The notes under the pieces are model-generated. The model saw only the letters and a list, made by a program, of their open reading frames with translations, was not told the DNA's origin and searched no databases. From an uncultured Clostridia bacterium (GTDB lineage: Bacteria > Bacillota > Clostridia > Christensenellales > UBA3700), in NCBI GenBank assembly GCA_945992255.1, contig CAMFVQ010000035.1, forward strand, positions 1 to 44,853: DNA of 44,853 bases, written 5' to 3'. Both the position numbers and the translations under genes were made by a program. Numbering within the stretch: position 1 is the stretch's first letter; the number at the start of each line of letters is the position of its first letter. This document shows positions 1,693-40,678 of this stretch, piece after piece.

Positions 1693-3555
1693 TCAGCTCC
1701 TTTTGTGCAAATAAGCGAGTAGCACGGTGATATCAGCAGGTGAAACACCCGAAATGCGTGATGCTTGACCTAGATTGGTTGGCTTGATATTGTTGAGTTT
1801 TTGTCTTGCCTCGATACGCAATCCTTGGATAGATTGGTAGTCAATATCGGCAGGTAAAAGCTTGTTTTCTAGCTTTTTGTTTTCTTCGATTTGGGCTTGT
1901 TGTTTGGATAAATAGCCCTCATATTTGTACTTGGTGGACAACTCTTCGAGAATTCTAAGATCGATATCTTTTAACTCTTCAAAGTTATCTTTTAGTAAGC
2001 TTGCTGAGATTTTGGCTCTGCGCATCATATCCTTGAAAGTAAGTCCACGATTTGGAATAGTTTCGCCAATACTTTCGAACAAGTCGCCATAAACTTTTGG
2101 CGAGATTGACTTGTCAAGTAAGCTGTCTACACTCTCCATTGTTTGCATTTTAGCGGTAAATCTATCCCAACGCTTATCATCAACCAAACCAATTTCTCTG
2201 CCGAGTGGGGTAAGTCTTTGGTCGGCATTTTCTTGTCTGAGATAAAGTCTGTGTTCTGCCCTTGCGGTCATCATACGATAAGGCTCGTTGGTGCCTTTGG
2301 TGACAAGGTCGTCGATAAGCACACCAATATAAGAACTATCTCTGCCAAGCACGATTGGCGACAAACCATTCATATACCTAGATGCGTTAATACCTGCCAT
2401 CAAACCTTGGGCGGCTGCCTCTTCATAACCACTGCTACCGTTGAGCTGACCTGCACAGAAAAGTCCCGGAATATGTTTGACCATAAGTGCGTTGTTGAGG
2501 TACAAGCTGTCTAAGCAATCATATTCTATGGCATAAGCATAGCGGATAATGTGGCAATGTTCGAGTCCAATCACGCTGTGATACATTTGGAGTTGGACAT
2601 CGAACGGCAAAGAACTGGACATACCTTGGATATACATTTCGTTGGTAAAACTGCTCTCTGGCTCAACGAAAATTTGGTGTCTGTCCTTGTCTTTGAAACG
2701 CATAACCTTGTCTTCGATACTTGGACAATATCTAGGACCAATGCCCTTGATAGAACCATTGTAAAGTGGCGATCTGTGTATGTTGGCAAAAATAATATCC
2801 TTAGTTTGTTGGGTGGTGTAAGTGAGATAACAAGGCTCTTTGTTGACACCATATCCATCGTTCATAAATGAGAAAGGATAGATTTTTTCATCACCCTCTT
2901 GAATTTCCATTTTGGAAAAATCAATAGTGTTTTTGTCCACTCTGGCAGGAGTGCCTGTTTTGAACCTACGCATAGGAATGCCAAGGTCAATAAGATTTTG
3001 GGTGAGTGAAGTTGCCCTTGCAAAGCCGTTTGGTCCAACTTCTTGACTCCAATCACCTATGATAATGCGAGCATTGAGATAAACACCGCTTGCAATCACC
3101 ACGCTATCACACTCGAAAGTTTGACCAGTGCTTGTCTTAACACCTGTCACTTTGCCACCGCTTGTGACAATTTCGCTCACTTCGGCTTGAAGTAAGGTAA
3201 GGTGAGGAGTAGATTCTAAAGTTTTTTTCATATCGAGATGATACATTGTCTTGTCTTCTTGTCCACGCAAACTATGCACGGCTGGACCTTTGCCCATATT
3301 GAGCATACGAATTTGGAGAAGATTGCGATCGGCAGTGAGTCCCATTTGTCCGCCGAGAGCATCAATTTCTCTCACCAAGTGACCTTTGGCAGTGCCACCA
3401 ATATTTGGGTTGCACGCCATGAAAGATATGCTGTCCATAGACAATGTAAGCAAAAGCGTTTTGTGTCCGAGGCGAGCTAGAGCCAAAGCCGACTCTACGC
3501 CAGCATGTCCACCGCCTACAACTATTGCATCATAATGTTTTTGATAAATTTCCAT
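1693..3555 (-). CDS. mnmG: tRNA uridine-34 modification enzyme MnmG, FAD subunit
   Basis: 620 aa, full length. With MnmE it forms the complex that installs (carboxymethyl)aminomethyl groups at U34 of tRNA. The N-terminal FAD-binding motif GGGHAGVESALALARLG starts near residue 13, and family motifs such as CNPNIGGTAKGHLVREIDA and GPRYCPSIEDK are present. The ATG has no Shine-Dalgarno; instead TATAAT stands exactly 6 nt before it, so the mRNA is probably leaderless. It is divergent from mnmE across 217 bp, whereas the two genes are normally collinear in this block. Confidence 0.97.
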   Translation of the reverse strand: MEIYQKHYDAIVVGGGHAGVESALALARLGHKTLLLTLSMDSISFMACNPNIGGTAKGHLVREIDALGGQMGLTADRNLLQIRMLNMGKGPAVHSLRGQEDKTMYHLDMKKTLESTPHLTLLQAEVSEIVTSGGKVTGVKTSTGQTFECDSVVIASGVYLNARIIIGDWSQEVGPNGFARATSLTQNLIDLGIPMRRFKTGTPARVDKNTIDFSKMEIQEGDEKIYPFSFMNDGYGVNKEPCYLTYTTQQTKDIIFANIHRSPLYNGSIKGIGPRYCPSIEDKVMRFKDKDRHQIFVEPESSFTNEMYIQGMSSSLPFDVQLQMYHSVIGLEHCHIIRYAYAIEYDCLDSLYLNNALMVKHIPGLFCAGQLNGSSGYEEAAAQGLMAGINASRYMNGLSPIVLGRDSSYIGVLIDDLVTKGTNEPYRMMTARAEHRLYLRQENADQRLTPLGREIGLVDDKRWDRFTAKMQTMESVDSLLDKSISPKVYGDLFESIGETIPNRGLTFKDMMRRAKISASLLKDNFEELKDIDLRILEELSTKYKYEGYLSKQQAQIEENKKLENKLLPADIDYQSIQGLRIEARQKLNNIKPTNLGQASRISGVSPADITVLLAYLHKRS

Positions 3556-3561
3556 ACGAAA

Positions 3562-3589
3562 ATTATAACATAACTATTTGGTAAAACAA
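3562..3589 (-). promoter_or_regulatory. mnmG promoter, leaderless type
   Basis: On the minus strand TATAAT (3567-3562) carries an extended TG-T motif and is followed by TTTCGT and then the mnmG ATG. The -35 (TTGTTT, 3589-3584, 16-bp spacer) is weak. A start about 7 nt after the -10 would fall on the A of ATG. Confidence 0.6.
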
Positions 3590-3591
3590 AA

Positions 3592-3604
3592 TGTTTGTGA
3601 AACA
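3592..3604. other. Inverted repeat resembling a shortened parS
   Basis: TGTTTGTGAAACA equals the parS consensus TGTTTCACGTGAAACA with the central CAC missing. It lies in the mnmG/mnmE intergenic region just upstream of the mnmG promoter. It could be a decayed ParB site or simple chance. Confidence 0.25.
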
Positions 3605-3737
3605 TTATTTATATCTGTGGAACAAATTATGCAAGTTCCGTAAAAAAAAGCCTTGTATAAAAATGTATAATTATGCAAAATTATTAAAAACGTGCGAAAA
3701 TGACTAAAAAAGAATGTTTTCAACATATCCAATTATA

Positions 3738-3766
3738 TTGAAAATACCCGTGTAGTATGTTACAAT
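3738..3766 (+). promoter_or_regulatory. mnmE promoter, leaderless type
   Basis: TTGAAA (3738-3743), 17-bp spacer and TACAAT (3761-3766) form a good sigma-A promoter. Only TACACT separates the -10 from the mnmE ATG at 3773, so transcription should begin at or next to the start codon. No Shine-Dalgarno is present. Confidence 0.75.
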
Positions 3767-3772
3767 TACACT

Positions 3773-5107
3773 ATGAAAACAATAGCTACAATTTCCACTC
3801 CGTTTGGCAGTGGCGCAATAGGAATAATAAGAATGAGCGGTGACAATGCACTTGGCATTGCTGCCAAAATGTTCTCGAGTAAGAGTTTGGATAGTTTTGA
3901 AAATGCCATGCCTAACTATATGTATTATGGTACGCTGACTACCCAAAATTTCAAGGACAAAATCTTGGCAGTGTATTTCAAAGCTCCCAACTCATATACA
4001 GGTGAAGACTTGGTAGAATTCCAATGCCACGGCGGTATTAGATTGGTGAGTGAAGTGTTGGAAGAATGTATCAGACAAGGCGCTTTTCCTGCCGATAAGG
4101 GAGAGTTTACTAAGCGTGCTTTTCTCAATGGCAAGTTTGCGCTGTCCGATTGTGAAGGCATAATTGATATGATAAATGGCGAGTCTATCTCTTCTCTCAA
4201 AGCAGGCAGTAGACTTATGCAAGGCGGTGTTGCCGGCGAGATAGAGAATTGTCAAGAATTGCTCAAAGACAGCATTGCAGAGTTGGAAGCTAGCCTAGAT
4301 TATCCTGATGAAATGGAAGAAGAAAGTATATCGAGTTGTCGAACTACTTTGGACAAGGTAGAGAGTGAACTCCAAAGGTTGGTGGACACAAAACAAGTGG
4401 GCGGATATATAAAACAAGGAATTGTGGTAGGAATTGTCGGACAAGCCAATGTGGGCAAGTCCTCACTCCTCAATGCTTTGCTTGGCAGGGAGCGTGCGAT
4501 TGTTACGGATATTGCAGGCACAACAAGAGATAGTCTCGAAGAATGTATAGAACACAAAGGAATTATTCTCAGATTGGTGGACACGGCAGGTATCAGAGAT
4601 ACGGCGGACGTGGTGGAAGCTTTGGGCGTAGAACGCAGTTTGGAGATTGCTAAAAACAGCGACATAACATTGTTCGTTACCCCAAACGACAGACAACTCA
4701 ATCAAGAAGAAAAAAATCTTTTGGGAGAGCTGGAAAAGCAAAATGCCAAAGTCATTATGGTGTTCAATAAGTCGGATTTGGGTAATGCTCATCAAGAAAA
4801 TGGAGTAAAAATATCTGCAAAACATAAGCAAGGCATAGAAGAATTGAAAGACAAAATTGTAAGTTTGGTGGTGGGCGAAAGCTTGGATATGAGTGGCAAT
4901 ATTATCACCAACACTCGCCATGCTCAAGCTATATCGGACAGCTTGGTATCTATAAGATCCGCCAAAGATATGTTGGATATCCAACCGACTGAATGTATTT
5001 TGCTCGACCTCAGACAAGCATACTTTGAGTTGGGTAAAATCACAGGCAACACGGCAAGCGAAGATATTATTGATAGTATATTTAGTAAATTCTGCTTGGG
5101 AAAATAA
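3773..5107 (+). CDS. mnmE: tRNA modification GTPase MnmE (TrmE)
   Basis: 444 aa, typical length. MnmE is the GTPase partner of MnmG in U34 tRNA modification. An N-terminal folate-binding domain (about 1-118) precedes a helical region that carries an inserted G domain: Walker A GQANVGKSS from residue 223, then DIAGTTRD, DTAG and NKSD. The C-terminus ends FCLGK, the conserved FC-x-GK with catalytic Cys441. It is on the plus strand although every neighbour from rpmH to parB is on the minus strand; in most Bacillota it lies between jag and mnmG in the same direction. It has its own leaderless-type promoter and its own terminator, so it is a single-gene unit. Confidence 0.97.
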   Translation: MKTIATISTPFGSGAIGIIRMSGDNALGIAAKMFSSKSLDSFENAMPNYMYYGTLTTQNFKDKILAVYFKAPNSYTGEDLVEFQCHGGIRLVSEVLEECIRQGAFPADKGEFTKRAFLNGKFALSDCEGIIDMINGESISSLKAGSRLMQGGVAGEIENCQELLKDSIAELEASLDYPDEMEEESISSCRTTLDKVESELQRLVDTKQVGGYIKQGIVVGIVGQANVGKSSLLNALLGRERAIVTDIAGTTRDSLEECIEHKGIILRLVDTAGIRDTADVVEALGVERSLEIAKNSDITLFVTPNDRQLNQEEKNLLGELEKQNAKVIMVFNKSDLGNAHQENGVKISAKHKQGIEELKDKIVSLVVGESLDMSGNIITNTRHAQAISDSLVSIRSAKDMLDIQPTECILLDLRQAYFELGKITGNTASEDIIDSIFSKFCLGK

Positions 5108-5192
5108 TAAAATATCAACAATATAATATAGCTACCATAAGTAAATATTAAGGGGTGTTTCGCTACCTACCACAAAGGCGAACTCTAATGGA

Positions 5193-5215
5193 AAGCGACT
5201 AAGGTCGCTTTTTTT
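5193..5215 (+). terminator. Terminator of mnmE
   Basis: Stem AAGCGAC/GTCGCTT with loop TAAG is followed by five further T. It is the first strong hairpin after the mnmE stop codon. A weaker hairpin (TTCGC...GCGAA, about 5158-5182) precedes it. Confidence 0.8.
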
Positions 5216-5620
5216 ATGCCGATTGTGGGGAGAAGATACAACAAAAAATGTAAATAACTCGATACATATCGACATTTTTGACGCTGTTGCGTAAATTTGA
5301 TAAATCAAATATGTTGACAAATAGTGTAATAAAAAAGTAAAAATTGTAATATAAAGATAACGTAAGTTGGACTATATATAGTCGAAATAATAATACCAAC
5401 ATAACAAAACAAAGTCAATGTAAGTAGAACTAGAAGTAGTCGATAAGACAGTCCAAGGCAACAAAACAAATACAATAAAAACGACAAATAAAGTTGATAT
5501 TATTTTATAAAAATAAAAAACAATGCTAGTCTGAAAAGTTGATATGATAGAATGTAGAAAAAATACCGACAACTAAAACAAACAATATCTTTAAGCTAAC
5601 TGTTGTGAAAAATAAAAACG
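5216..5620. repeat. AT-rich gene-free stretch with imperfect tandem repeat
   Basis: I see no gene in these 405 bases; the minus-strand open frames are low-complexity and have no ribosome site. Two imperfect copies of a roughly 52-nt unit, each beginning GTAAGT and ending AACAAAACAAA, lie at 5362-5413 and 5420-5470. The stretch marks the junction between inverted mnmE and jag and may be rearrangement debris. Confidence 0.4.
5259..5272. repeat. TCGATA-CA-TATCGA inverted repeat
   Basis: TCGATACATATCGA has two 6-bp arms and is followed by C and a T-rich stretch. It belongs to a scattered family in this window (17871, 25513, 30621, 33781, 40971; half-like at 1114). Confidence 0.5.
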
Positions 5621-5621
5621 C

Positions 5622-5651
5622 AAAAAAATAGGCACGAATATCGTGCCTATT
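5622..5651 (-). terminator. Terminator of the rpmH-jag operon
   Basis: On the minus strand the perfect stem AATAGGCACGA/TCGTGCCTATT with loop TAT is followed by a T-run. It lies 10 nt past the jag stop codon. Confidence 0.85.
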
Positions 5652-5661
5652 TATGTTTGAT

Positions 5662-6462
5662 TTAGAAGTATTTTGACTTTGGAGCTCCGAAAGTTTTCAT
5701 CTTTCTTGCACCAGTTTTCTTGAAGTTGCGAGAATATTCTGAGTTGTACATATCTCTTTCTACTTCTGGTTTTGCCTCTGGTACAGGGATTTCGTCATCA
5801 TAGCTAGAATATTTCTTTTCGGACTTGAAGTTGTCCTTGCGTTCTCTTCTTTCTCTCTTTGGCTTGTTCGGAATGATTGTCACATATCTGTTTGGCTCTT
5901 CGCCTTCGCTGGTGGTGTTGACATATTTGTCATCAGCAAGTGCAGAGTGAATGATGCGTCTTTCAAACGGATTCATTGGTTCGAGAGAGATTGTTTCGCC
6001 TGACTTAGATGCCTTGAAAGCAAGCTTTTTGGCAAGTTTTGCAAGGGTTGCAGTGCGTTTTTCTCTATAATTTTCGCCATCGATGACTACTCTCTTGTTT
6101 TCCCAGTTGTTCTTGCCAGCAACTAGCAAAGTGAGATATTGAAGGGAGTCTAACACGTCGCCACGATAGCCGATTAGCTTGGAAGTGTCTTTACCACTGA
6201 GTTCTATATTGATAGTGGTGTCATCTTCACTGCCTTCTACATTTACTTCGAGATTCATTTTGGCAACTACTCCTTGGATAAAGCTTACTGCAATCTCCAA
6301 AGCGGTTGGTTTGGCGGTAACTGTGATTGTGGTCTTTTTGCGGATAACGCCTGAAGTTTTGACGTTGGTAATATCCACTTGTTTGAGTTGAAGCCCCAAC
6401 TCAGCAAGTGCTTTTTCAACCGCTTCATCGTATGTTGGTGCTGTCATTTCTATACTTTTCAT
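5662..6462 (-). CDS. khpB: RNA-binding protein KhpB (Jag)
   Basis: 266 aa. KhpB/Jag is an RNA-binding protein with links to cell elongation in Bacillota. It has a Jag-N domain (about 1-50), a KH domain with motif GKDTSKLIGYRGDVLDSLQYL near residue 90, and an R3H domain (EPMNPFERRIIHSAL, near 163-177). The C-terminal 60 or so residues are charged, low in complexity and probably disordered. It follows yidC by 17 nt, the standard yidC-jag arrangement, and ends its operon because mnmE beyond it is inverted. Confidence 0.93.
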   Translation of the reverse strand: MKSIEMTAPTYDEAVEKALAELGLQLKQVDITNVKTSGVIRKKTTITVTAKPTALEIAVSFIQGVVAKMNLEVNVEGSEDDTTINIELSGKDTSKLIGYRGDVLDSLQYLTLLVAGKNNWENKRVVIDGENYREKRTATLAKLAKKLAFKASKSGETISLEPMNPFERRIIHSALADDKYVNTTSEGEEPNRYVTIIPNKPKRERRERKDNFKSEKKYSSYDDEIPVPEAKPEVERDMYNSEYSRNFKKTGARKMKTFGAPKSKYF

Positions 6463-6479
6463 TCTTTCTCCTTGGACAA

Positions 6480-7481
6480 TCAGGCTGTTTCATTTGCCTT
6501 TTTCTTGTCGATAGTTTTGGTAATCAAATTGAATATTACAGTGGACAAAGTGCTGAGAATGTTGCTCATAACATAGTAAATTGCGAATGCCGCACTGTAC
6601 ATAATTGCGAAAAATCCGAGCATCAATGGCATGATATAGTTCATCATTTTCATTGTTTTTGCTTGGGCTTGTTGTTGCTCCTTGGTGCCTGACATGCTTT
6701 GTGGTTGCATTTTTTGAAGTAGCCAGGTCGAGAAGAAGCTGGTGGCTATTGCTAGGACTGGCAATACAAAATAACCATTCCATCTGCTAGCTTGCCAGAA
6801 AGATTGTTTGTTGTAGATTTCCATTGCTGGACCTACCAAAGTATCATAGCTTGCTGCAAGTCCGTTTGGAAGTGTTGCACCGATACCGCCCATGCCGGAA
6901 CTGGTGAAGTTCTCGAGGTTTGGAATAACGTTGGTGCCGATATCTGACATAAATACGTTCTTTATCCAAAGCCAAGACTCTGGTTGGTACATAGCTGCAA
7001 GTGCGGTTTTGATTTCTTCGGCACTTGCACCGGCTGCCACAAGTCTGACATATTCGTCATTTAGTCTTGCCAAAATAAGTTGGTTTTGGTATACAACCAA
7101 TTCTCTAAAGCCTGCGAACACTACAAAGAAGACAATCATTGTCACGATCATAGGCAAGCAAGATGCTAGCATACTAACGTCTGATGACCTTTGGAGTTCG
7201 TATTGCTTTTGGCGGAGCAAATCTGGATTGTTGGCATACTGCTTTTGAATTTTTGCAAGTTTTGGTTGCAAAATCGCCATTGCTTTTTGTTGTTTGCGCA
7301 TAGAAACTTTTTGCCAAACATCAAGTGGCGTAAGGATAAGTTTTAATATTATCGTAAATACAACAACAGTCCAACCAAAACTGCTACCAACGCTGTTGTG
7401 CAACGCAAGTAGGAGCTTGCCTACCCAGTTGGTCATGGTAACTTGGTCAGCTGTCGATGCTAAAAGTGTCATAAAAGCCAT
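6480..7481 (-). CDS. yidC: Membrane protein insertase YidC/Oxa1
   Basis: 333 aa. YidC inserts and folds proteins in the cytoplasmic membrane, alone or with Sec. The Oxa1-type core is visible: GWTVVVFTIILKLILTPLDV as the first core helix with its conserved Arg replaced by Lys in LKLILTPL, a charged cytoplasmic hairpin (residues about 55-98), and helices near 105-125, 235-255 and 280-320. Many Bacillota YidC carry a lipobox; I see none here. The start overlaps the yidD end by 13 nt, so translation is probably coupled. Confidence 0.95.
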   Translation of the reverse strand: MAFMTLLASTADQVTMTNWVGKLLLALHNSVGSSFGWTVVVFTIILKLILTPLDVWQKVSMRKQQKAMAILQPKLAKIQKQYANNPDLLRQKQYELQRSSDVSMLASCLPMIVTMIVFFVVFAGFRELVVYQNQLILARLNDEYVRLVAAGASAEEIKTALAAMYQPESWLWIKNVFMSDIGTNVIPNLENFTSSGMGGIGATLPNGLAASYDTLVGPAMEIYNKQSFWQASRWNGYFVLPVLAIATSFFSTWLLQKMQPQSMSGTKEQQQAQAKTMKMMNYIMPLMLGFFAIMYSAAFAIYYVMSNILSTLSTVIFNLITKTIDKKKANETA

Positions 7482-7708
7482 TTTATTGTTCCTTTATAAT
7501 TGTCTTTGACAGGGTCAAAACCGCCATTGTGCCAAGGATTGCACCTGCAAATGCGAGCGATACCCTTGCCTATTCCTACTACGACCCCTCGTTTGGCGAT
7601 AGCTTGTGCCATGTATGCCGAACAACTAGGAGTGTATATGCAAGAATCAGGGAGCAGCGGATTGATAAAATTTTTGTAATACCCAATCAAGCCAATTGAA
7701 ATTTTCAT
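7469..7708 (-). CDS. yidD: Membrane protein insertion efficiency factor YidD
   Basis: 79 aa, typical. The family pattern is complete: YYKNFINPLLPDSCIYTPSC, the middle AIAKRG, then RICRCNPWHNGGFDPV. YidD is a small membrane-associated protein that helps YidC-dependent insertion. It lies 6 nt after rnpA and overlaps yidC by 13 nt, in the canonical rpmH-rnpA-yidD-yidC order. Confidence 0.95.
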   Translation of the reverse strand: MKISIGLIGYYKNFINPLLPDSCIYTPSCSAYMAQAIAKRGVVVGIGKGIARICRCNPWHNGGFDPVKDNYKGTIKWLL

Positions 7709-7714
7709 AATGTT

Positions 7715-8050: not shown

Positions 8051-8059
8051 GATTACCTA

Positions 8060-8194
8060 TTAGACAGTTAGGCTCTTTCTGCCCTTGTTGCGACGTCTTC
8101 TAAGAACATTTCTGCCGCTCTTAGAACGCATTCTCTCTCTAAATCCGTGTACCTTGCTGCGTTGTCTTTTTTTTGGTTGATAAGTTTGTTTCAT
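8060..8194 (-). CDS. rpmH: 50S ribosomal protein L34
   Basis: 44 aa, the exact usual size of L34, with the basic family sequence [20 protein letters not shown]. Start at 8194 has GAGAGGA upstream. An in-frame extension to 8287 is only promoter region. It is the first gene of the rpmH-rnpA-yidD-yidC-jag operon. In many Bacillota dnaA and oriC lie just upstream; here they are not seen. Confidence 0.97.
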
Positions 8195-8243
8195 AGTTAT
8201 ATCCTCTCTTATTATAATGTCTAAAATTTTATATAGCCAGTAA

Positions 8244-8499: not shown

Positions 8500-8505
8500 T
8501 ATATA

Positions 8506-11707: not shown

Positions 11708-13322
11708 CGGAATGTGTCCTATTTGTTTTTTGAAACAACTTTTTACACCCAACAGCCGTATAACAAATGTGGACATCGAAGAAGAATATGACAACGGCGT
11801 AGCTCAAACACCGCCAATGGGTTGGTCGAGTTGGAATACTTTCAAGAACAATATTGATCAAGATATGATACTTGACACTGCCAAAGCTATGCAAGAAAAA
11901 GGCTTGGTAGATGCAGGTTATCGCTATCTCAATCTAGATGATTGTTGGCATGCCAACCTCAGAGATGAAAACGATGAACTCCAAGGCGATATGGTCAGAT
12001 TTTCGATGGGTATGCCAGCACTTGTCCAAGCTATCAACAGCCGTGGACTAAAAGTAGGTACATATTCGAGCAACGGCACATACACTTGCGAGGACTTGCC
12101 TGCAAGCCTAGGCAGAGAAGAAAAAGATGCACTCACCATTGCAAGGTGGGGCTTTGAATTTTTCAAATATGATTTTTGCCACAACATAGCCATTCCTAGC
12201 TATGCGCCACTCGTGTACAGCATCGAAATCAGCCAAGTGGGCAACGGCAAGGTAGTGCAAAAAATCTTGTGTGACCAAGCAGTTTTGCGTGGAACAGCTC
12301 GCTTGATGCCAACAAACAAAGTCGAGGGTAAAAAGTACATATCCGGTATGGACAAAGCCAAAGGTGAAGCCTTGTTCGACAATGTTTATGTAGAAGAAGG
12401 GGGCGAATATATCCTAACAATCAATGTATTCAAGAAGGGTATGTACGACAAATTCCTAAGAGCAAAAGTGGGAGATAGGGCATATTATTTTGAAATTCCA
12501 CCACAAAAGAAATGGAATGTAACAGCTCGTTTTAGCCAAAAAGTCCAACTCAAAAAGGGCGTAAATCAAATATCACTCACCAACCCAGTCGGCACTCGTG
12601 CGGATAGCGCTATGCTCCAATACTACAAAATGGGACAAGCCTTGAAAAAGGCAAGCGAGAGATTTGCCAAAGAAAACAATGAACCACTCAAACCTATCGT
12701 ATTTTCGGTATGCGAATGGGGAAGAAACCAACCATATTTGTGGGCAAGCAAAGTGGGCAATATGTGGAGAACAACACCTGACATTATACCAAATTGGTTG
12801 TGGATAAAGCATATTTATGAGCATAATGTAAAGCTCTATCAAAGCGCAAGTGTGGGACACTACAATGACCCAGATATGCTCGAAGTGGGCAACGGCAAAC
12901 TTACGCTCGAACAAAACAAATCGCACTTTGCGCTGTGGTGTATGATGAGCGCTCCACTTATGCTAGGCAACGATATACGCAGTATTACCCAAGACGTGCT
13001 CGATATTGTGACCAATGCGGATATGATAGCTATCGACCAAGACAAATTGGGCAAGCAAGCAAAGCGAATCATCAAAGGAGGGGTAGATATACTTGCAAAA
13101 CCTCTCGAAAAGGGTGTGGCAGTATGTTTGTTCAACAAAAAGTCATCATCAAAATGTGTGGCAGTGGATTGGAGCAAAATAAGTGGCGATGAATATATCA
13201 AAGCAAGTTGGACAGCGGACAGCTCAGCTGTCGAAGTTTGGACAGGCAAAGAGTGCAAACTTCAAGACCTATCCAACGTCAATCTCAAAGGATATGAGAG
13301 CAAAGTCTTTATTATAAGATAG
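11697..13322 (+). CDS. GH27-type alpha-galactosidase-like glycoside hydrolase with inserted domain
   Basis: 541 aa, with no signal peptide, so it is probably intracellular. The GH27 barrel opens with TPPMGWSSWN (38-47) and YLNLDDCWHA. The likely nucleophile is Asp159 in FKYDFCH and the acid/base Asp391 in HYNDPDML. Between the nucleophile strand and the next barrel strand (SVCEWGRNQPYLW, near 340) there is an insertion of about 130-140 residues (about 170-310) that reads as a beta-rich, CBM-like module. A C-terminal beta domain follows from about 440. A CPIC motif sits in an unusual 35-residue N-terminal leader. It overlaps the dehydrogenase gene by 11 nt. Alpha-galactosidase or alpha-N-acetylgalactosaminidase/isomaltodextranase-type activity cannot be separated. 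Confidence 0.85.
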   Translation: MKRNGMCPICFLKQLFTPNSRITNVDIEEEYDNGVAQTPPMGWSSWNTFKNNIDQDMILDTAKAMQEKGLVDAGYRYLNLDDCWHANLRDENDELQGDMVRFSMGMPALVQAINSRGLKVGTYSSNGTYTCEDLPASLGREEKDALTIARWGFEFFKYDFCHNIAIPSYAPLVYSIEISQVGNGKVVQKILCDQAVLRGTARLMPTNKVEGKKYISGMDKAKGEALFDNVYVEEGGEYILTINVFKKGMYDKFLRAKVGDRAYYFEIPPQKKWNVTARFSQKVQLKKGVNQISLTNPVGTRADSAMLQYYKMGQALKKASERFAKENNEPLKPIVFSVCEWGRNQPYLWASKVGNMWRTTPDIIPNWLWIKHIYEHNVKLYQSASVGHYNDPDMLEVGNGKLTLEQNKSHFALWCMMSAPLMLGNDIRSITQDVLDIVTNADMIAIDQDKLGKQAKRIIKGGVDILAKPLEKGVAVCLFNKKSSSKCVAVDWSKISGDEYIKASWTADSSAVEVWTGKECKLQDLSNVNLKGYESKVFIIR

Positions 13323-17897: not shown

Positions 17898-18551
17898 TTA
17901 GATTATGTAAGGCACGTGGCAATATTCTTTGAGTTTTTGGCGGCGTATGGCATAGTCAGGCATATATGCTTGGACAAGTCGCCAAAATTCTTTGCTGTGG
18001 TTGAGCTGTCGCAGGTGACATAGCTCGTGCAGTATAACATAGTCGATGAGAGAAACATCGACCAACACCAGTCGCCAACTTAGCCTTATACCTGTGCGTG
18101 CGTTGCAAGTCCCCCAACTTGTTTTGGCGGAAGATAGTTTGAGTGAAACGCCCTCAATGTTGATAGAATGAGCAAGGCGTTTTGCTCGCTCGATAACCAA
18201 TTCTTGCGCCAAAGTTTTGTAGAAAGATATGAGGCTTTGGACAGGATTGTCTGAGCGTTGCAAGTACAAAATGCCTCCGTGTATGTGGTTCGGCTTGTCG
18301 GTATAAGTGATACAATATTGGTTGCCAAGGACCAGCACCATTTCGCCCTCTAGGGCAGTGTATGGTGTATAAAGGGGCATTCTTTTTTGTGCTTTTTGTA
18401 TGTGTTTTGCTATCCAATCGCTATGTTTTTGGACAAAGATTGCAACATCTTTGGTGCTTGTTTTCATAGGAACTTTGACAACAAGGTCGCCATTTGGCTG
18501 AATGCAGAGCGACATTGTACGGCGGTTGGAGCGAACAATTGAATAATCCAT
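17898..18551 (-). CDS. YgjP-like (SprT/DUF45) metallopeptidase
   Basis: 217 aa. The zinc motif HELCHLRQLNHSKEFW (His175, Glu176, His179, with His185 downstream) and the preceding SAKTSWGTCN (about 141-150) are the hallmarks of the YgjP/DUF45 group of M48-like cytosolic metallopeptidases. The physiological substrate is not known. The gene is a single unit with no Shine-Dalgarno: TATAAT stands 6 nt before the ATG, so it is probably leaderless. Confidence 0.88.
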   Translation of the reverse strand: MDYSIVRSNRRTMSLCIQPNGDLVVKVPMKTSTKDVAIFVQKHSDWIAKHIQKAQKRMPLYTPYTALEGEMVLVLGNQYCITYTDKPNHIHGGILYLQRSDNPVQSLISFYKTLAQELVIERAKRLAHSINIEGVSLKLSSAKTSWGTCNARTGIRLSWRLVLVDVSLIDYVILHELCHLRQLNHSKEFWRLVQAYMPDYAIRRQKLKEYCHVPYII

Positions 18552-18557: not shown

Positions 18558-18585
18558 ATTATATCACGCCCAAAGCAAAATGCAA
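18558..18585 (-). promoter_or_regulatory. ygjP-like promoter, leaderless type
   Basis: On the minus strand TTGCAT (18585-18580), 16-bp spacer with TGA extended -10, TATAAT (18563-18558), then GAAGCT and ATG. No ribosome site lies between -10 and start. Confidence 0.65.
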
Positions 18586-26745: not shown

Positions 26746-26774
26746 TTGATAAAAACTCCAAAAAGTGGTAAAAT
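26746..26774 (+). promoter_or_regulatory. plsY promoter, leaderless type
   Basis: TTGATA (26746-26751), 17-bp spacer, TAAAAT (26769-26774), then TTTCGT and ATG. The six-base link TTTCGT is identical to that of mnmG. No Shine-Dalgarno. Confidence 0.75.
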
Positions 26775-26780: not shown

Positions 26781-27515
26781 ATGAGTACAGCCAAAATAAT
26801 CATATATGTTGTTTTGTGTATTCTTGCCTATTTTATCGGTGCAATCAATTTTGCAATTATTATAGCCAAGAAAGGTGCAAAAGTGGACATCAAAAATGTG
26901 GGTAGTGGCAACCCTGGTACAATGAATGTACTTCGCACGATAGGCAAAAAGTGGGGAGCGCTAACATTTGCTTGCGACGCTCTCAAAGGCTTGACTTTTG
27001 GGCTTGTTGGCAGATTGGCTTTCAACGAATATGGCATGGCATTGGCTTTTGGATTGGGGCTATGTGCAATAGTGGGACATATTTTCCCTGTTTATACCAA
27101 ATTCAAGGGCGGAAAAGGCGTGGCGACGTCCATAGGATTTTTTATGGCAATCATACCAGTCATCACTGTCGTGGTGTTGGCGATTTTGATAATATGGCTG
27201 TTCTATGGCAAATACGGCTTCATCGGCTCTTTGACTGCAATAGCCGTGTTGGCTGTCAGCTCGTGCATTATATATCGCCAAAGTGTGGCGGTCATCATCA
27301 TAGCGTTGGTCATTTTTGGTTTGGTGGTGTTCGCTCACAGGAGCAATATCAAAAGGTTGTCGACAGGCAAAGAAAACACTCTTCAACTTGCCAAAAAGTC
27401 GGATTCTCAGGCAAGTGAAAAGTCAAAAGAAGATGAGGTCAAAGAAGAAATGTCCAACATCTCAGCCAACGCAAATACCGATGAAAATCCATCGAACGAC
27501 AAAGAAAACAAATAA
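26781..27515 (+). CDS. plsY: Acyl-phosphate:glycerol-3-phosphate acyltransferase PlsY
   Basis: 244 aa. PlsY is the membrane enzyme that acylates glycerol-3-phosphate from acyl-phosphate, the first step of phospholipid synthesis. Several hydrophobic helices fill residues 1-195, and the conserved active-site loops are visible: NVGSGNPGTMNVLRTIGKKWG (near 38-58), CDALKG and FKGGKGVATSIG. The last 45 residues are a Lys/Glu/Asn-rich hydrophilic tail that most PlsY lack. First gene of plsY-ychF-argS, probably read from a leaderless mRNA. Confidence 0.95.
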   Translation: MSTAKIIIYVVLCILAYFIGAINFAIIIAKKGAKVDIKNVGSGNPGTMNVLRTIGKKWGALTFACDALKGLTFGLVGRLAFNEYGMALAFGLGLCAIVGHIFPVYTKFKGGKGVATSIGFFMAIIPVITVVVLAILIIWLFYGKYGFIGSLTAIAVLAVSSCIIYRQSVAVIIIALVIFGLVVFAHRSNIKRLSTGKENTLQLAKKSDSQASEKSKEDEVKEEMSNISANANTDENPSNDKENK

Positions 27516-33794: not shown

Positions 33795-33802
33795 TTTTTG
33801 GG

Positions 33803-35050: not shown

Positions 35051-35724
35051 TGTTTTGCACCCAATTGATAACCGACGCCACGGATAGAGTTGATGACAAA
35101 TGGAGCATCAATAAAAGCCAATTTTTTACGCAAAAATGATATAAAAACTTCTAGAGAATTGGACTCAAAAGTGTTGTCGAAGCCCCAAACTTTGTTTATG
35201 AGAGCTTCTTTTTCTGCCACATATCTTGGTTTTTCTAAGAAGAATCTCATGATGTCGCACTCTTTTTGGGAGAGTTTGACAGACTTTGTGCCGTGCAAGA
35301 GTTGATAGCTTGACAAGTTAAGAACGACTCCCTCATATGTCAAAGTGTTCTCAGTGGTCACATCTCCACGGCGGCGAAGCACAGCTCTTATACGAGCAAG
35401 TAGCTCTGGCGTGGAAAATGGTTTGGATAAATAGTCATCTGCCCCCATATCCAAGCCATGCACTTTGTTGGACTCCTGAGATAGGGCGGTGAGCATGATG
35501 ATTGGTGTCGCAATCTTGCTTTGTCTGAGTTCTGATAGCACCTCGAAGCCATTTTTCTTTGGCATCATCACGTCCAAAATAATCAAATCGAAGATATTTG
35601 TTTTCGCTATAGAAAGTCCTTGTTCGCCGTCATAGGCACATTCTACAGTGTATTTTTCTTTTTCTAGCACAGTAGTTAGGACTTCACATAGGCTGATAGA
35701 GTCTTCCACGAGTAGTATTCTCAT
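35047..35724 (-). CDS. OmpR/PhoB-family response regulator
   Basis: 225 aa. The receiver domain has phosphoacceptor Asp51 (LIILDVMMP), acidic pair ED and Lys101 (LSKPF). The C-terminal winged helix (about 128-223) ends VINSIRGVGYQL, typical of OmpR/PhoB. I start at ATG 35724, with AAGGAGGA upstream. Directly upstream lie two pairs of TTTAATA heptamers with 11-bp spacing, the form expected for a site bound by this protein class, so autoregulation is likely. Confidence 0.95.
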   Translation of the reverse strand: MRILLVEDSISLCEVLTTVLEKEKYTVECAYDGEQGLSIAKTNIFDLIILDVMMPKKNGFEVLSELRQSKIATPIIMLTALSQESNKVHGLDMGADDYLSKPFSTPELLARIRAVLRRRGDVTTENTLTYEGVVLNLSSYQLLHGTKSVKLSQKECDIMRFFLEKPRYVAEKEALINKVWGFDNTFESNSLEVFISFLRKKLAFIDAPFVINSIRGVGYQLGAKQ

Positions 35725-35738
35725 ATTTCCTCCTTGTC

Positions 35739-35789
35739 TATTAAACAAATATTAAAAAAATTTTTTTGGTTTTTAATACTGATTTAATA
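35739..35789. promoter_or_regulatory. Candidate response regulator operator, four TTTAATA boxes
   Basis: TATTAAA at 35739-35745 and 35750-35756, and its complement TTTAATA at 35772-35778 and 35783-35789. Each pair is a direct repeat with start-to-start distance 11 bp; the two pairs face opposite ways. OmpR/PhoB regulators bind direct repeats of this period. The site lies 15-65 bp upstream of the regulator's ATG. Confidence 0.5.
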
Positions 35790-35860
35790 TACGTCGTTTA
35801 TTATGTAGTTGTAGATAAATAGCAAACGACATAATTTTTTTCTTCATAATCTGATACTAA

Positions 35861-35885
35861 AAGCCCTAACTTGTTAGGGTTTTTT
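35861..35885. terminator. Bidirectional terminator after rlmB
   Basis: Stem CCCTAAC/GTTAGGG with loop TT, A-rich left and T-rich right. The minus-strand rlmB operon ends 3 nt away. Confidence 0.75.
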
Positions 35886-35888
35886 AGT

Positions 35889-36608
35889 TTATTTCAGTCT
35901 TTGTCTTACGATTTCATAACAAATAATACCACAGGCTACACTTGCATTGAGCGAATTGACTTTGCCGAATTGTGGAATAGACACGGTGGTGTCGCACAAT
36001 TTTTTGGTCAAAGCTTTTACACCCTCACCCTCGCTGCCTACCACCAAAGCGACATCGCCAGTGAGATGAGCATCATATAGAGTTTCGCCGTCCATATCCG
36101 CACACACAATGTTGACAAAGTTGTCTTTTAGATTACGGATAGTATCGTTGATATTGCCCACCATAGCGATAGGCAAGTGACTTGTAGCGCCTGCTGCAAC
36201 TCTTTGAACGGTAGGGGTAACTCCCACAGCACGGCGTGATGGAATAACAATGCCGTCAGCACCGCAACATTCTGCCACACGCACAATGCTACCAAGATTG
36301 TGAGGGTCAACTATGCCGTCAAGAATAATCAAGAACAAGTCGTGTCCTTTGGCTTTGGCACTCTCGATTATTTTGTCGAGAGGCGTGTATTTGAAGTCTT
36401 CACAGATTGCCACCAACCCTTGGTGTCTACCAGTTTCGGACAACTTGTCCAGCTCATTTCTGTCGACAAAAGTCAACCTAATGCGTTTGGCTTTGGCTTT
36501 GTCGATGATAGGTTGGAGATCGTGCATATTCTTGGCAACATAGAGTTTGGATATTTCAATATCGCTATCTAGCGCCTCTTTGACAGGGTTTTTTCCTTCT
36601 ATTTGCAT
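35889..36608 (-). CDS. rlmB: 23S rRNA (guanosine-2'-O)-methyltransferase RlmB-type
   Basis: 239 aa. SPOUT (SpoU) methyltransferase with an N-terminal substrate-binding domain (EGKNPVKEAL at the start) and the knot motifs LDGIVDPHNLGSIVRVAECCGADG, VVGSEGEG and IPQFGKVNSLNASVACGI. It acts on 23S G2251 in E. coli; the exact target here is inferred. Last gene of a six-gene minus operon, 9 nt after the UPF0210 gene, with a weak AAAGG site. Confidence 0.93.
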   Translation of the reverse strand: MQIEGKNPVKEALDSDIEISKLYVAKNMHDLQPIIDKAKAKRIRLTFVDRNELDKLSETGRHQGLVAICEDFKYTPLDKIIESAKAKGHDLFLIILDGIVDPHNLGSIVRVAECCGADGIVIPSRRAVGVTPTVQRVAAGATSHLPIAMVGNINDTIRNLKDNFVNIVCADMDGETLYDAHLTGDVALVVGSEGEGVKALTKKLCDTTVSIPQFGKVNSLNASVACGIICYEIVRQRLK

Positions 36609-36617
36609 AAGATACCT

Positions 36618-37967
36618 TTAGTTTTTGTTGCTGTGTAGTGGAGCAGGGATACGGCCACCACGAGAGATGAACTTGCTTGGGGAGTACTCACTGATTTTCA
36701 TAATTGGAGCACGACCGAGAAGTCCGCCGAATTTGGCATATTCGCCCACACCTTTGCCATAAACAGGGATAACTCTTACGGCAGTTGTCTTGGTGTTGAC
36801 CACACCGATTGCGATTTCGTCAGCAATGAGAGCAGAGATAACATCTGCACTTGTGTCGCCCGGGATAGCAATCATATCAAGACCAACCGAGCAAACAGCT
36901 GTCATAGCTTCGAGCTTTTCGAGGTTGAGAGCACCGATTTCGCTTGCCTTAATCATACCGGCATCTTCTGATACAGGAATGAACGCACCGCTTAGTCCGC
37001 CTACATGGCTGCTTGCCATAATACCGCCTTTCTTGACTGCATCATTGAGCATAGCAAGGGTAGCGGTTGTACCGCAAGCGCCCACGCTTTCTAGACCGAT
37101 CTCTTCCAAAATATGAGCCACACTGTCGCCCACCACTGGAGTTGGAGCAAGTGATAGGTCTACGATACCGCTTGATACGCCAAGCCTTCTGCTAGCTTCT
37201 TGGGCAACGAGTTGTCCCACACGAGTAATCTTGAAAGCAGTTTGTTTGATACATTCTGCCACTTGTGTTAGGTCACCGCTTACGCTTTCGAGAGCCGATT
37301 TGACAACACCAGGACCTGATACACCTACGTTGATGACAGCATCATCTTCACCGCTGCCTAGGAAAGCACCTGCCATGAATGGATTGTCCTCTACCGCATT
37401 GGCAAACACAACGAGCTTTGCGCAAGCTAGAGAGTCGTTGTCACGAGTGAGATATGCACACTCTTTGACAATTTTACCCATAAGTGCCACAGCATCCATA
37501 TTGATACCAGCCTTAGAAGTTGCCACGTTGACAGAAGAGCAAATCTTGTTGGTGGTGGACAAAGCCTCAGGAATAGAACGGATAAATTCTTCTTCATAAG
37601 GACTCATAGCCTTGTGTACAAGGGCAGAATATCCGCCAAGGAAGTCGATGCCGATTTCGTCAGCAATCTTGTCGAGAGTGCGAATGATTTCGAGATGACC
37701 ATGGCTTGATGCACTTACCAAACTGATAGGGGTGACAGAGATACGCTTGTTGACGATAGGCACACCAATCTCGTTGGATATATCTTCGCCGACTTTGACA
37801 ATGTTTCCAGCCTTTTTCATAATCTTGTCATAGATTTTTTGGCAAGTTTTGGTCTTGGAGTCGCTTATACAATCCATAAGCGAGATACCCATGGTGATAG
37901 TTCTCACGTCAAGGTGTTGGTGAGATACCATATTGATTGTTTCAAGAATTTCATTGTTTGTATACAT
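36618..37967 (-). CDS. UPF0210 (DUF711) PFL-like family protein
   Basis: 449 aa. Strongly conserved family of unknown biochemical role, distantly similar in fold to pyruvate formate-lyase. Visible conserved segments include [52 protein letters not shown] and [16 protein letters not shown]. It is nearly always paired with the small ACT protein, which here precedes it by 11 nt. A role in amino acid-linked regulation is only suggested by that pairing. Confidence 0.92.
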
Positions 37968-37978
37968 AGCGACTACCT

Positions 37979-38269
37979 TTATAGAGTTTTTGTGTTGGTT
38001 GTGAGCTTGTGCATACTTTCAAAAATGCTTTGAGATTGGATATGAATTTCCACGCCAAGTTCTTCGCCAGTAGCGGTGAGTTTGTCCTTGATTTGTGCAA
38101 AATTGAGCTTGCTTTCTCCAAGGTCAACAGCCATTATCATTGTAAAATAATTTTGCATAATTGTTTGAGAGATATCTTCGATATTTACATCGATATCACT
38201 GAGTGTAGTTGCAACTTTGGCAATGATACCTTTTTTGTCCATGCCGATTACAGAAACGATTGCTTTCAT
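37979..38269 (-). CDS. ACT domain protein, UPF0237 family
   Basis: 96 aa, two-thirds of it one ACT domain ([23 protein letters not shown]). ACT domains bind small ligands, usually amino acids, and act as sensors. Start at 38269 has AAAGGAG upstream; an in-frame extension to 38311 overlaps lepB. It forms the standard UPF0237-UPF0210 pair and lies 2 nt after lepB. Confidence 0.93.
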
Positions 38270-38271
38270 AT

Positions 38272-38817
38272 TTACTCCTTTGTTTTTATCAAAACTTTTC
38301 CTATTATCCAAGATTTGTTGATACAGCCGTATACATGGCTGTCGAATGAGACGTTGCGATTGTCGCCCAGCACGAAAAGCTCATCCTTTTTGACAATAAG
38401 TCCTGTGGTGGTGAGTAGTGTTTTCACCAAAGGGTCTTGATGATCGCTGTCTAGATAGTTGGGAATATATCCGCCGGATAGGGTTGTCAAATAGTTTTCT
38501 TCCAATACTTTGCCGTTGACAATCCAACCTTGTTGTTTGTCGAATAGCACGGTGTCACCCTCCATAGCAATGATTCGCTTGACAGGCGGACCTTCGCTAG
38601 TTGGGCGTTGGAAAACTATTATATCTCCGACAGACAATTTATAATTGACTTTTTGTACCCAAATTATGTCGTTGTCGTGCAATGTATCACGCATTGAGTC
38701 GCCCTCCACCCTCATAGGCGAGATGAGCCACAACAGCGAAACTATTGCCACAATAAGCACGATTATCACCAAGGTGAGAATGATATTGATGATTGTAAGC
38801 ATAGGACTTTTACTCAT
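38272..38817 (-). CDS. lepB: Signal peptidase I
   Basis: 181 aa, the Gram-positive single-anchor type. One N-terminal membrane helix (about 7-33) is followed by the catalytic Ser41 in VEGDSM and Lys80 in PPVKRIIAMEGD, with VLGDNR near the C-terminus. It cleaves signal peptides of secreted proteins on the outer face of the membrane. It overlaps the DUF951 gene by 8 nt and is followed by the ACT gene after 2 nt. Confidence 0.96.
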   Translation of the reverse strand: MSKSPMLTIINIILTLVIIVLIVAIVSLLWLISPMRVEGDSMRDTLHDNDIIWVQKVNYKLSVGDIIVFQRPTSEGPPVKRIIAMEGDTVLFDKQQGWIVNGKVLEENYLTTLSGGYIPNYLDSDHQDPLVKTLLTTTGLIVKKDELFVLGDNRNVSFDSHVYGCINKSWIIGKVLIKTKE

Positions 38818-38995
38818 TTTTATCCACCTTACTTTTTATGGATTTTTGAGCTTGCTCGCTGGTCAGCATAACAACTTTGCCACAATGTAGGCATTTTAGC
38901 TTCCAGTCCGCACCAGTGCGTACAACTTCCCATTCATTGGCACCGCAAGGGTGTTGTTTTTTTGTTTTTACTATATCCCCAATCATTATTTGCAT
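38810..38995 (-). CDS. DUF951 small zinc-ribbon-like protein
   Basis: 61 aa. Matches the DUF951/YyzM pattern: GDIVKTKKQHPCGANEWEVVRTGAD, then CLHCGKVVML with a CxxC. The function is not known. I keep ATG 38995 because family members have about five residues before GD; ATG 38986 is the alternative. It starts 1 nt after the stop of the hydrolase-like gene. A TATAAT across that stop (39001-38996) could be an internal promoter but lacks a good -35. Confidence 0.88.
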   Translation of the reverse strand: MQIMIGDIVKTKKQHPCGANEWEVVRTGADWKLKCLHCGKVVMLTSEQAQKSIKSKVDKNE

Positions 38996-38996
38996 A

Positions 38997-40643
38997 TTAT
39001 ACCCACAAAATATTGTTGATTAGCACACCGCCAATATCTTTGAAAGCCAACTTCTTGATACCTCTCCAAGACTTCATCGCCATCATATCGGCTGTCTTGA
39101 AACTTTGCAGTTCGATAGGGTGCTTTTGCCATTGCTCAGAGCCGTTGAGTTGGACTGTGGTGGTGTAGATTGTAGTTTTGTCGTTTTCTTGCACGGTGAG
39201 TTCCACTTCTAGCTCTCGCTCTTCTTGGCAGTAGCAGTCGAATTGGAACAAATTGTTCTCATCGGCAGGGTATTTGTTGTCGCCGATAGAATATGTCACG
39301 AGGTTGCCTTTGCTTGCGGTCACGCCGAGTATGTCGAACGCTCCTGCTTGCAAGCTAGGATATTCGGCAATTTCGTTTTCTTTGGATTCTTCAAGCCAAG
39401 CTTTTGTGCCGTTCTTGCGTTCATAAATTATTTGACTTTTCTTGAATGGTGCAAAGTCGATTTCTTCATCTTCTATCTCGAAACATTGGGGTAGTGATGA
39501 CATACAAAATCCGTTTTGGAAGAGGGTGTTGGCATATACAAAAATGTATTTTGTATGCTCATAAACAGGGATTTCGCCCTTACCCTTTTCGTCCAAAGTG
39601 AGCTTTCGCCAATTCCTGAGGCGAGGATTGAGTTCATCATAGCAGTAGTATGCACAATTTTCTTCAATCGGCTCTTCCTTGTCGCACTCGACTTTGACAA
39701 TGAATTTTTTGTCCACCACTCCAATATCGAGCAGTGGAGTCTTTGGCATAGGAGCTTTGAAACTTGTACGCTCCAACCATTCTGGCACGAGCATAACCGC
39801 ACTTTGGTAAATGTTGGAGGTAAGTCCTGCACAAATGCATTTGGTCACGCTTGCTTTTTCGGCAACGATATTGAGAGTGTTTTCAAGTCTGTCCACAGGG
39901 GTTAGGTCGCAATTGGTAGTGCCTACAAATAGTGTAGGGCATTTTACCAGTTTGGCATAAGTTTGGGAAGCGCAACCTGTCAACCACCTTTCTCGCTCAT
40001 CAGTGAGTTCGATATCTTTTTCGCTGAATTTGTGAAAGTTGGCATATTCTTTCCAGCCTGCATTGAACACAGCAATCAAACCATTTACACGGCTGTCGGT
40101 TGCGGCAGTTTGCCAAGCAATGTCAGCTCCACGCCTAAGTCCTAGGATATAAATCAAGCTGTCTTTGCCAATGAGTTGTTGGGCAAGAGAAATCACCCTT
40201 CTGCATACCTTTGTCCACACGAACACGCAGGTATCTTTGGCTGTCGGAATGGCATAGTCTAGGTGTTTGCCTGCATGCAAAAGGTTGGCATAGTCTACGC
40301 TAGGCGGATAAATGGTGTGCGGAAGGTCGTTTTGCATATCGCCACGATAATCAAAATAAAGCACGCCAAACTCGTGTTTGACAATGCTAGACAGGTCAGA
40401 TTCCAACAATTTGCCGGCATGACCGTCAGCTATGATAACCATTTTTTTGCATTTAATTTTTGGCAAAAAGCCGTGAAAAAAGATACGAATTGTGCCGTCT
40501 GCATAAGTATCGCCATTGAAATAGCCTTTGATAGAATAAAACTCCCCCAAGTCCTTGTATTCTTGAAATGCTATTTGCAAGGTTGTACTATCAGGATTGT
40601 AGTCTGCCCACAGTTGGTTGGGCGTCAAAATAATATTGTCCAT
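38997..40643 (-). CDS. Alpha/beta-hydrolase-fold protein, nucleophile missing
   Basis: 548 aa. An N-terminal beta region (1-65), an alpha/beta-hydrolase core (about 66-330) and a C-terminal beta domain (about 440-548) that reads like a carbohydrate-binding sandwich. The core resembles acetyl-xylan-esterase-type hydrolases: GVLYFDYRGD, the elbow LGLRRGADIAWQTAATDSRV, and CPTLFVGTTNCDLTPVDRL. The elbow G-x-S-x-G has Arg170 for Ser (codon AGG, one base from AGC/AGT), and I find no His at the usual late position (ICAGLTSNI). Catalysis by the classical triad is therefore unlikely. No signal peptide. I start at ATG 40643; the frame upstream to 40865 is non-coding in character. TATAAT lies 6 nt before the ATG with no Shine-Dalgarno, so it is probably leaderless. 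First gene of the lepB operon. Confidence 0.8.
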   Translation of the reverse strand: MDNIILTPNQLWADYNPDSTTLQIAFQEYKDLGEFYSIKGYFNGDTYADGTIRIFFHGFLPKIKCKKMVIIADGHAGKLLESDLSSIVKHEFGVLYFDYRGDMQNDLPHTIYPPSVDYANLLHAGKHLDYAIPTAKDTCVFVWTKVCRRVISLAQQLIGKDSLIYILGLRRGADIAWQTAATDSRVNGLIAVFNAGWKEYANFHKFSEKDIELTDERERWLTGCASQTYAKLVKCPTLFVGTTNCDLTPVDRLENTLNIVAEKASVTKCICAGLTSNIYQSAVMLVPEWLERTSFKAPMPKTPLLDIGVVDKKFIVKVECDKEEPIEENCAYYCYDELNPRLRNWRKLTLDEKGKGEIPVYEHTKYIFVYANTLFQNGFCMSSLPQCFEIEDEEIDFAPFKKSQIIYERKNGTKAWLEESKENEIAEYPSLQAGAFDILGVTASKGNLVTYSIGDNKYPADENNLFQFDCYCQEERELEVELTVQENDKTTIYTTTVQLNGSEQWQKHPIELQSFKTADMMAMKSWRGIKKLAFKDIGGVLINNILWV

Positions 40644-40649
40644 ATAAGC

Positions 40650-40678
40650 ATTATAATATTTTGGAGTAGAAAATGCAA
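40650..40678 (-). promoter_or_regulatory. Promoter of the hydrolase-lepB-rlmB operon, leaderless type
   Basis: On the minus strand TTGCAT (40678-40673), 17-bp spacer, TATAAT (40655-40650), then GCTTAT and ATG. Confidence 0.75.

Follow-up and report, generated by a model that had tools for sequence, protein, structure and literature searches.

Genes whose mRNA starts at the start codon itself have been described in several groups of bacteria, and here we consider a set of genes, predicted to be of this kind, in a 44,853-nucleotide (nt) stretch of DNA (the window, i.e., the whole stretch that was analysed), where a promoter -10 element ends exactly 6 nt before the ATG of mnmG, mnmE, a ygjP-like gene, plsY and a 548-amino-acid gene (the 40643 gene). 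The Firmicutes survey of Zheng et al. 2011 gives leaderless genes in 56 of 209 genomes, with a mean of 4.2% of genes and a range of 2.4 to 16.6 (PMC3160421), and locates them mainly in the Lactobacillales (Lactococcus-Streptococcus and Oenococcus-Leuconostoc) together with five Mycoplasma genomes (PMC3160421). The first-pass annotation of the window had called leaderless mRNAs rare in Bacillota. Given these numbers the word is too strong, yet the concentration in Lactobacillales and Mycoplasma stands (PMC3160421).

For cultured clostridia, maps of transcription start sites (TSSs) exist for C. phytofermentans, three solventogenic strains and C. difficile (PMC5171806, PMC9045289, PMC7438776), in which the potentially leaderless part amounts to 4% of intergenic sense TSSs (PMC5171806), about 2 to 3% of transcripts (PMC9045289) and 15 genes (PMC7438776), respectively. 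GeneMarkS-2, with 5,007 genomes, predicts leaderless transcription in 21.6% of bacterial species, according to a paper that cites it (PMC9581028). Our searches of the open-licence literature gave no report of leaderless genes for the order of the window, and the GeneMarkS-2 survey may already list its genomes. From the architecture described below, it is highly probable that the genes with the 6-nt spacing form a leaderless class.

A hexamer phased to the start codon

The genome from which the window comes (G000) is an assembly of 1.48 Mb in 62 contigs, 97.95% complete. Forty stretches of it were taken together with the window as a gene-level sample (628,896 bases, GC 0.405). Genes were called by codon usage (473 in all), and the ATG nearest the coding-potential optimum was taken as the start while upstream motifs were ignored, which gives 442 or 441 ATG starts by slightly different filters. 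A hexamer is counted as TATAAT-like when it departs from TATAAT at no more than one position, which must be one of the middle three. Such a hexamer ends 6 nt before the ATG in 20 of the 441 starts (4.5%), with one case at 5 nt and one at 7 nt; the mean at 3-5 and 7-10 nt is 1.71, and the Poisson P is 4e-15. The genome-wide peak that the first-pass annotation had proposed as a check is thus present, at a single position. The first 20 stretches, which were partly picked from contigs with pattern matches, hold 13 of these sites in 248 starts; the second 20, taken from the remaining contigs by number, hold 4 in 159 (0 at both 5 and 7 nt), and the window 3 in 34. The share of leaderless-type sites in this genome is about 2.5 to 5% of called ATG starts.

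The same is seen with an exact pattern, TATAAT-N5-TATG, which occurs 43 times in the whole genome and 14 times when the hexamer is set at 9 nt. Within the sample, 16 of the 25 exact matches at 6 nt belong to called starts, another 6 to open frames that were not called, and the 9-nt pattern gives 2 matches in all. When any candidate ATG is admitted, a loose set of 30 sites is obtained (8 for the reversed hexamer). The strict choice of starts recovers mnmG, plsY and the 40643 gene of the window, and the looser choice adds mnmE. Relaxing the hexamer to TANNNT gives 22 sites at 6 nt, just 2 above the near-consensus set, and a degenerate TANNNT class is rejected on this count. No 6-nt peak is found before GTG starts (3 at 6 nt; 3 at 5 and 5 at 7) or TTG starts (4 at 6 nt; 6 at 5 and 4 at 7), both being few in number and of low power; among leaderless mRNAs of E. 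coli, AUG is the preferred start codon. Shine-Dalgarno (SD) motifs peak 5 to 7 nt before the starts of this genome, so the ordinary SD mechanism is also used in it. The 6-nt sites favour first genes: they precede 16 of 219 proxies for transcription-unit starts and 2 of 191 inner genes.

To describe the promoters, the strict site sets from six of the order's genomes were pooled (1742 called ATG starts). The hexamer stands at 6 nt in 53 of them, at 5 nt in 4 and at 7 nt in 6. By genome, the 6-nt counts beyond G000 are 10/288 in G001 (P 1e-5), 12/259 in G003 (8e-16), 7/272 in G258 (3e-5) and 3/317 in G075 (0.004), and the share ranges from 0.6% to 4.6% of called ATG starts across the six. The spike in G003 arises at a GC of 0.56, with 0 and 0 at the neighbouring positions. 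An SD motif is found in 1 of the 53 sites and in 973 of the 1689 other starts (P 4e-18). The base at -1 is T in 47 sites, C in 6 and a purine in none, where 1021 of the 1689 other starts have a pyrimidine; in the loose set of G000 it is T in 30 of 30, compared with 57% of all ATG starts. TTG lies at a 17-bp spacer upstream of the -10 in 30 of the 53 sites and 0 to 5 times at each other spacer from 12 to 22, and 23 of the 30 loose sites have a hexamer that agrees with TTGACA at four or more of its six positions (about 4.5 in shuffles). The 6-nt sites thus carry the -35 feature of a sigma-70/sigma-A type promoter. Transcription prefers to start 7 bp downstream of the -10 and directly after a template purine, which is a pyrimidine on the coding strand (PMC5730371). 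Because of these preferences, a pyrimidine at -1 together with the 6-nt spacing is what would be required if transcription began at the A of the ATG.

Within the loose set, ten genes were checked by Pfam. They code for UvrC, a HAD hydrolase, Ppx/GppA, a DEAD-box helicase with a DbpA domain, a biotin/lipoate ligase-like protein, RuvA, a SpoU methylase, a metalloenzyme-superfamily protein (presumably phosphopentomutase-like), PrmA and Asp23. Many members look like housekeeping and repair genes. As a separate observation, the TATAAT-like hexamers of G000 have a smaller second bump 22 nt before the ATG (14, reversed 6; in the loose count 24, reversed 13), as would be expected of a minimal leader with barely enough room for an SD motif.

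Conservation and breadth among relatives

MnmE-like matches are found in 45 of 45 relatives, and the upstream regions of 30 mnmE loci, that of G000 included, were compared. The 6-nt layout is present in all loci of three genera (g1 2/2, g4 6/6 and g2 5/5, i.e., 13/13), and these 13 sites have no SD motif. Along them the T at -35, the TG at -15/-14, the -10 except its third base and the 6-nt spacing are invariant, and most other positions vary. In a further genus, g6, the -10 stands at 7 nt in 3 of 3 loci (L061, L063 and L064), once before a GTG start, and this may be a shifted variant of the 6-nt layout. In g5 an SD is seen by motif in 1 of 2 loci. Related MnmE proteins also occur in named genomes, including 'Clostridia bacterium', 'uncultured Ruminiclostridium' and 'uncultured Clostridiales bacterium', at 38 to 39% identity, and these matches suggest that G000 is Clostridia-like. 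For uvrC, the 6-nt layout is found in G000, G001, G075 and G278, i.e., in three families and in the four sampled genomes where uvrC was found.

For a wider survey we use the exact pattern at 6 nt and compare it with the same pattern at 9 nt in genomes at least 90% complete. This control is preferred to the pattern read backwards since it keeps the codon frame; the backwards pattern seemed a poor control in AT-rich genomes, where the codon composition of one frame could by itself raise the forward count. The choice matters: in the order outside the own family of G000, the 1563 matches at 6 nt compare with 556 backwards and with 823 at 9 nt, so with the 9-nt control the enrichment in family and order survives and the effect shrinks. 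In the own family the counts are 1253 versus 512 in 34 genomes (G000 included), and the 6-nt count is the higher in 34 of 34. The order outside the family comprises 94 genomes, of which 77 are higher and 15 lower. Families of the order with an excess are f16 (162 versus 38), f32 (146 versus 47), f14 (111 versus 40), f3 (115 versus 42), f24 (179 versus 76) and f28 (106 versus 32, a figure to be held loosely, the exact pattern being a crude measure: in its member G278 just 1 of 5 matches lies at a called start). No excess is found in f4 (29 versus 31), f12 (39 versus 42), f31 (70 versus 66) and f33 (9 versus 11).

Beyond the order, the rest of the class gives 4724 versus 4166 in 186 genomes (a 13% excess; 110 higher, 62 lower), and a sample of the phylum, which has three genomes in common with the class sample, gives 1489 versus 1375 in 148 genomes, with G000 first in rank. 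The excess is therefore strong in the own family and in several others of the order, missing from some, and weak in the rest of the class and in the phylum. A first look with TATAAT-N(5-7)-ATGAAA in 99 relatives had given 16 matches in G000 versus 2 backwards, with wide variation, and serves as a lead only. Five genomes with named records show no clear 6-nt excess over the backwards pattern (3 versus 1, 12 versus 8, 2 versus 0, 11 versus 14 and 14 versus 12). Four families of the class outside the order have smaller excesses of their own, f143 (75 versus 38), f140 (123 versus 79), f34 (118 versus 76) and f129 (124 versus 81). They are possible further leaderless lineages, picked as the best of 62 families and uncorrected for that choice.

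The genes of the window

On reading the window, all five pairs of -10 and ATG have the 6-nt spacing that the first-pass annotation had reported, and a Shine-Dalgarno is seen before none of the five ATGs. The -35 elements at 17 bp that it had named for mnmE, plsY and the 40643 gene are also present, although in the last only TTG fits the consensus. The upstream sequence of mnmG has no clear -35 on reading, and the best candidate of the ygjP-like gene is a TTGCAT at 16 bp. Pfam bears out the identities of MnmG, MnmE, the YgjP-like protein and PlsY; the label 'hydrolase-like' for the protein of the 40643 gene finds no support, there being no Pfam match at E 0.001. The features are collected in Table 1.

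Table 1. Promoter elements and genes of the predicted leaderless class in the window (positions count from its first letter).
Feature	Position	Strand	Basis and remarks
-10 element TATAAT of mnmG	3562..3567	-	TATAAT-TTTCGT-ATG; 6 nt before ATG; read from sequence
mnmG, 620 amino acids, predicted leaderless	1693..3555, ATG 3555-3553	-	Open reading frame (ORF); Pfam GIDA 1.7e-151
-35-like TTGAAA of mnmE	3738..3743	+	17-bp spacer to -10; read from sequence
-10 element TACAAT of mnmE	3761..3766	+	TACAAT-TACACT-ATG, 6 nt; layout in 13/13 loci of g1, g2 and g4
mnmE, 444 amino acids, predicted leaderless	3773..5107, ATG 3773-3775	+	ORF; Pfam TrmE_N from residue 3; ATG agrees with conserved N-terminus of relatives
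-10 element TATAAT of YgjP-like gene	18558..18563	-	TATAAT-GAAGCT-ATG, 6 nt; read from sequence
YgjP-like metallopeptidase gene, 217 amino acids, predicted leaderless	17898..18551	-	ORF; Pfam YgjP-like 1.5e-50; missed by gene caller
-35-like TTGATA of plsY	26746..26751	+	17-bp spacer to -10; read from sequence
-10 element TAAAAT of plsY	26769..26774	+	TAAAAT-TTTCGT-ATG, 6 nt; read from sequence
plsY, 244 amino acids, predicted leaderless	26781..27515	+	ORF; Pfam G3P_acyltransf 2.9e-45
-35-like TTGCAT of 40643 gene, weak, 3/6 matches	40673..40678	-	17-bp spacer to -10; read from sequence
-10 element TATAAT of 40643 gene	40650..40655	-	TATAAT-GCTTAT-ATG, 6 nt; read from sequence
548-amino-acid gene (40643 gene), predicted leaderless	38997..40643	-	Inside ORF listed from an upstream TTG; without Pfam match
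TACATT, 5 nt before ATG of spmA candidate (ATG 44146-44144)	44152..44157	-	Candidate sixth case; the name spmA is from the first-pass annotation

The mnmG and mnmE genes are divergent, both predicted to be leaderless, and share one intergenic region of 217 bp (3556-3772). A tighter arrangement is observed elsewhere in G000 (L025, on contig 22), where the divergent genes at 11708 (-) and 11765 (+) both have the 6-nt layout and their ATGs are 56 bp apart; judged by layout, these would be two leaderless promoters back to back in a minimal intergenic region. One of the two proteins is presumably SDR-like and the other is a DEAD-box helicase. For the spmA candidate no SD is seen upstream, and its orthologue in G003 (58% identical, with the starts aligned) has the 6-nt layout TAAAAT-AGCGGT-ATG. 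A 5-nt peak, which would back the candidate, is not found in G000 (1 site at 5 nt).

Readings and comparison with known systems

The sequence architecture, the phasing to a single base, the missing SD and the conservation in part of the relatives are matters of observation. The leaderless reading is supported by the 6-nt peak, the pyrimidine at -1 (53/53), the TTG at 17 bp (30/53), the SD count (1/53), the bias toward first genes and the conservation at mnmE. In this class a housekeeping promoter of the sigma-70/sigma-A type, with a -35 and a near-consensus -10, would have its favoured TSS, 7 bp downstream of the -10, on the A of the ATG, and the pyrimidine at -1 would help fix initiation on that A. 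The mRNA would start with 5'-AUG, without a Shine-Dalgarno, and an assembled 70S ribosome with initiator tRNA would most likely bind this 5' AUG directly, as on known leaderless mRNAs, for which direct 70S initiation has been reviewed (PMC9031893). Ordinary SD initiation would serve many genes of the same genome. Judging from the promoter geometry, the RNA 5' end most likely lies at the ATG, and the 70S route is likewise the most likely one.

Several results weigh against this reading. In G278 the hexamer stands at 6 nt in 1 of 165 starts (P 0.5), which is no spike. Family counts and gene counts also disagree: f28 has an excess though its member G278 has no spike, and f31 has none though its member G075 has 3/317. 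The reversed hexamer is found at 6 nt 5 times in the G000 set, and 1 loose site of the 30 coincides in part with a stretch that looks like an SD. Orthologues were compared within the sampled stretches, those whose alignment starts beyond residue 12 being dropped, uncounted, and the 6-nt layout is kept in just 24 of the 49 directed comparisons. Starting from G000, it is kept in 5 of 7 cases to G001, in 2 of 4 to G003, and in 2 of 8, both uvrC, to G075, G278 and G258, which belong to other families. None of the 6 mnmE loci from other families has the layout, and mnmE is SD-led in 6 of 6 loci of g3. Upstream of the gene, 5 of these 6 have a similar stretch that resembles a promoter, GTGATATATTATAA, and is separated from the ATG by a leader with an SD; therefore the leaderless and SD-led states of mnmE may differ by a short leader.

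The ATG-proximal promoter could be real but secondary, with the main transcript coming from further upstream and being translated from a leader, as in Clostridium phytofermentans. We hold this to be unlikely. It would require a ribosome-binding site (RBS), and on this part of the proposal the SD counts (1/53 versus 973/1689) and the 13 mnmE sites of g1, g2 and g4 without an SD motif argue against it. Misassigned start codons, where a real promoter would be followed by an incidental ATG and then by an ordinary leader that runs to the true start, are more improbable still. The start caller is simple, and for several loose-set genes the optimum of coding potential is found far downstream of the ATG (m_off down to -558); however, the N-terminal ends of related MnmE proteins line up with this ATG, the Pfam domains of RuvA, PrmA and MnmE set in at residues 1, 4 and 3, respectively, and neither the single-base phasing nor the pyrimidine at -1 in 53 of 53 sites is expected for an incidental ATG. 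As a general cause, misassignment is rejected on the domain starts, the orthologue alignments and the MnmE N-termini. Chance occurrence of TATAAT-like hexamers near ATG in AT-rich intergenic DNA has the reversed hexamers at 6 nt and the near-background exact-pattern counts of the phylum sample in its favour, but it is scarcely credible and is rejected in view of the single-base peak (P 4e-15 in G000 and 8e-16 in G003 despite its GC of 0.56), the -35 and -1 signals, neither of which was used to pick the sites, and the conservation in relatives.

Returning to the leaderless reading, we regard it as somewhat probable that a further leaderless clade of Bacillota exists beside Lactobacillales and Mycoplasma, made up of several families of one Clostridia-like order. 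Its layout would be unusually strict, with a -10 close to the consensus, a spacing of exactly 6 nt, a pyrimidine at -1 and apparently AUG as the start, and single housekeeping genes would switch between leaderless and SD-led states at the level of genera, with mnmE leaderless in g1, g2 and g4, at 7 nt in g6 and SD-led through a leader in g3, and uvrC in the 6-nt layout in four genomes. If this is true, gene finders that weigh the SD may put the start codon in the wrong place for a few percent of the genes of this order. The genes concerned may also behave as other leaderless mRNAs do under stress and toward antibiotics that target initiation; leaderless transcripts are spared by some antibiotics (PMC9581028). 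As one orthologue switches its state from genus to genus, the order would offer a natural experiment on the gain and loss of ribosome-binding leaders, and such changes were measured in Actinobacteria and Streptococcaceae by the 2011 survey (PMC3160421).

Like the leaderless Firmicutes of Zheng et al., the genomes considered here have a Pribnow-type TAtAAT near the start codon in a minority of genes (4.5% in G000), with SD initiation dominant (PMC3160421). They differ in being a different clade by all signs (PMC3160421), and whereas the -35 is suggested to be missing in Lactococcus (PMC3160421), TTG at 17 bp is frequent here. As in Actinobacteria and Deinococcus-Thermus, the -10 is placed so that the RNA would start at the start codon, here by promoter geometry. 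In those phyla, however, about 20% and 40% of genes are leaderless with a looser TAnnnT (PMC3160421), compared with 0.6% to 4.6% and TAtAAT here, and some Actinobacteria use GUG efficiently (PMC9031893), where the present genomes have no 6-nt peak before GTG or TTG, at low power. The present sites do not fit a class of the Actinobacteria/Deinococcus type, given the low share of genes and the lack of a degenerate TAnnnT signal. The small leaderless share is like that of the cultured clostridia (PMC5171806, PMC9045289, PMC7438776). In C. phytofermentans, though, genes of this sort as a rule retain an RBS and have a further TSS upstream (PMC5171806), whereas 52 of the 53 sites here have no SD motif; again unlike that species, the layout is phased to one base, and at mnmE it is common to three genera. 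The kind of system is thus known and its share is ordinary; what seems new, within the literature searched, is the clade, the layout that is free of an RBS and strict to a single base, and the switching between genera.

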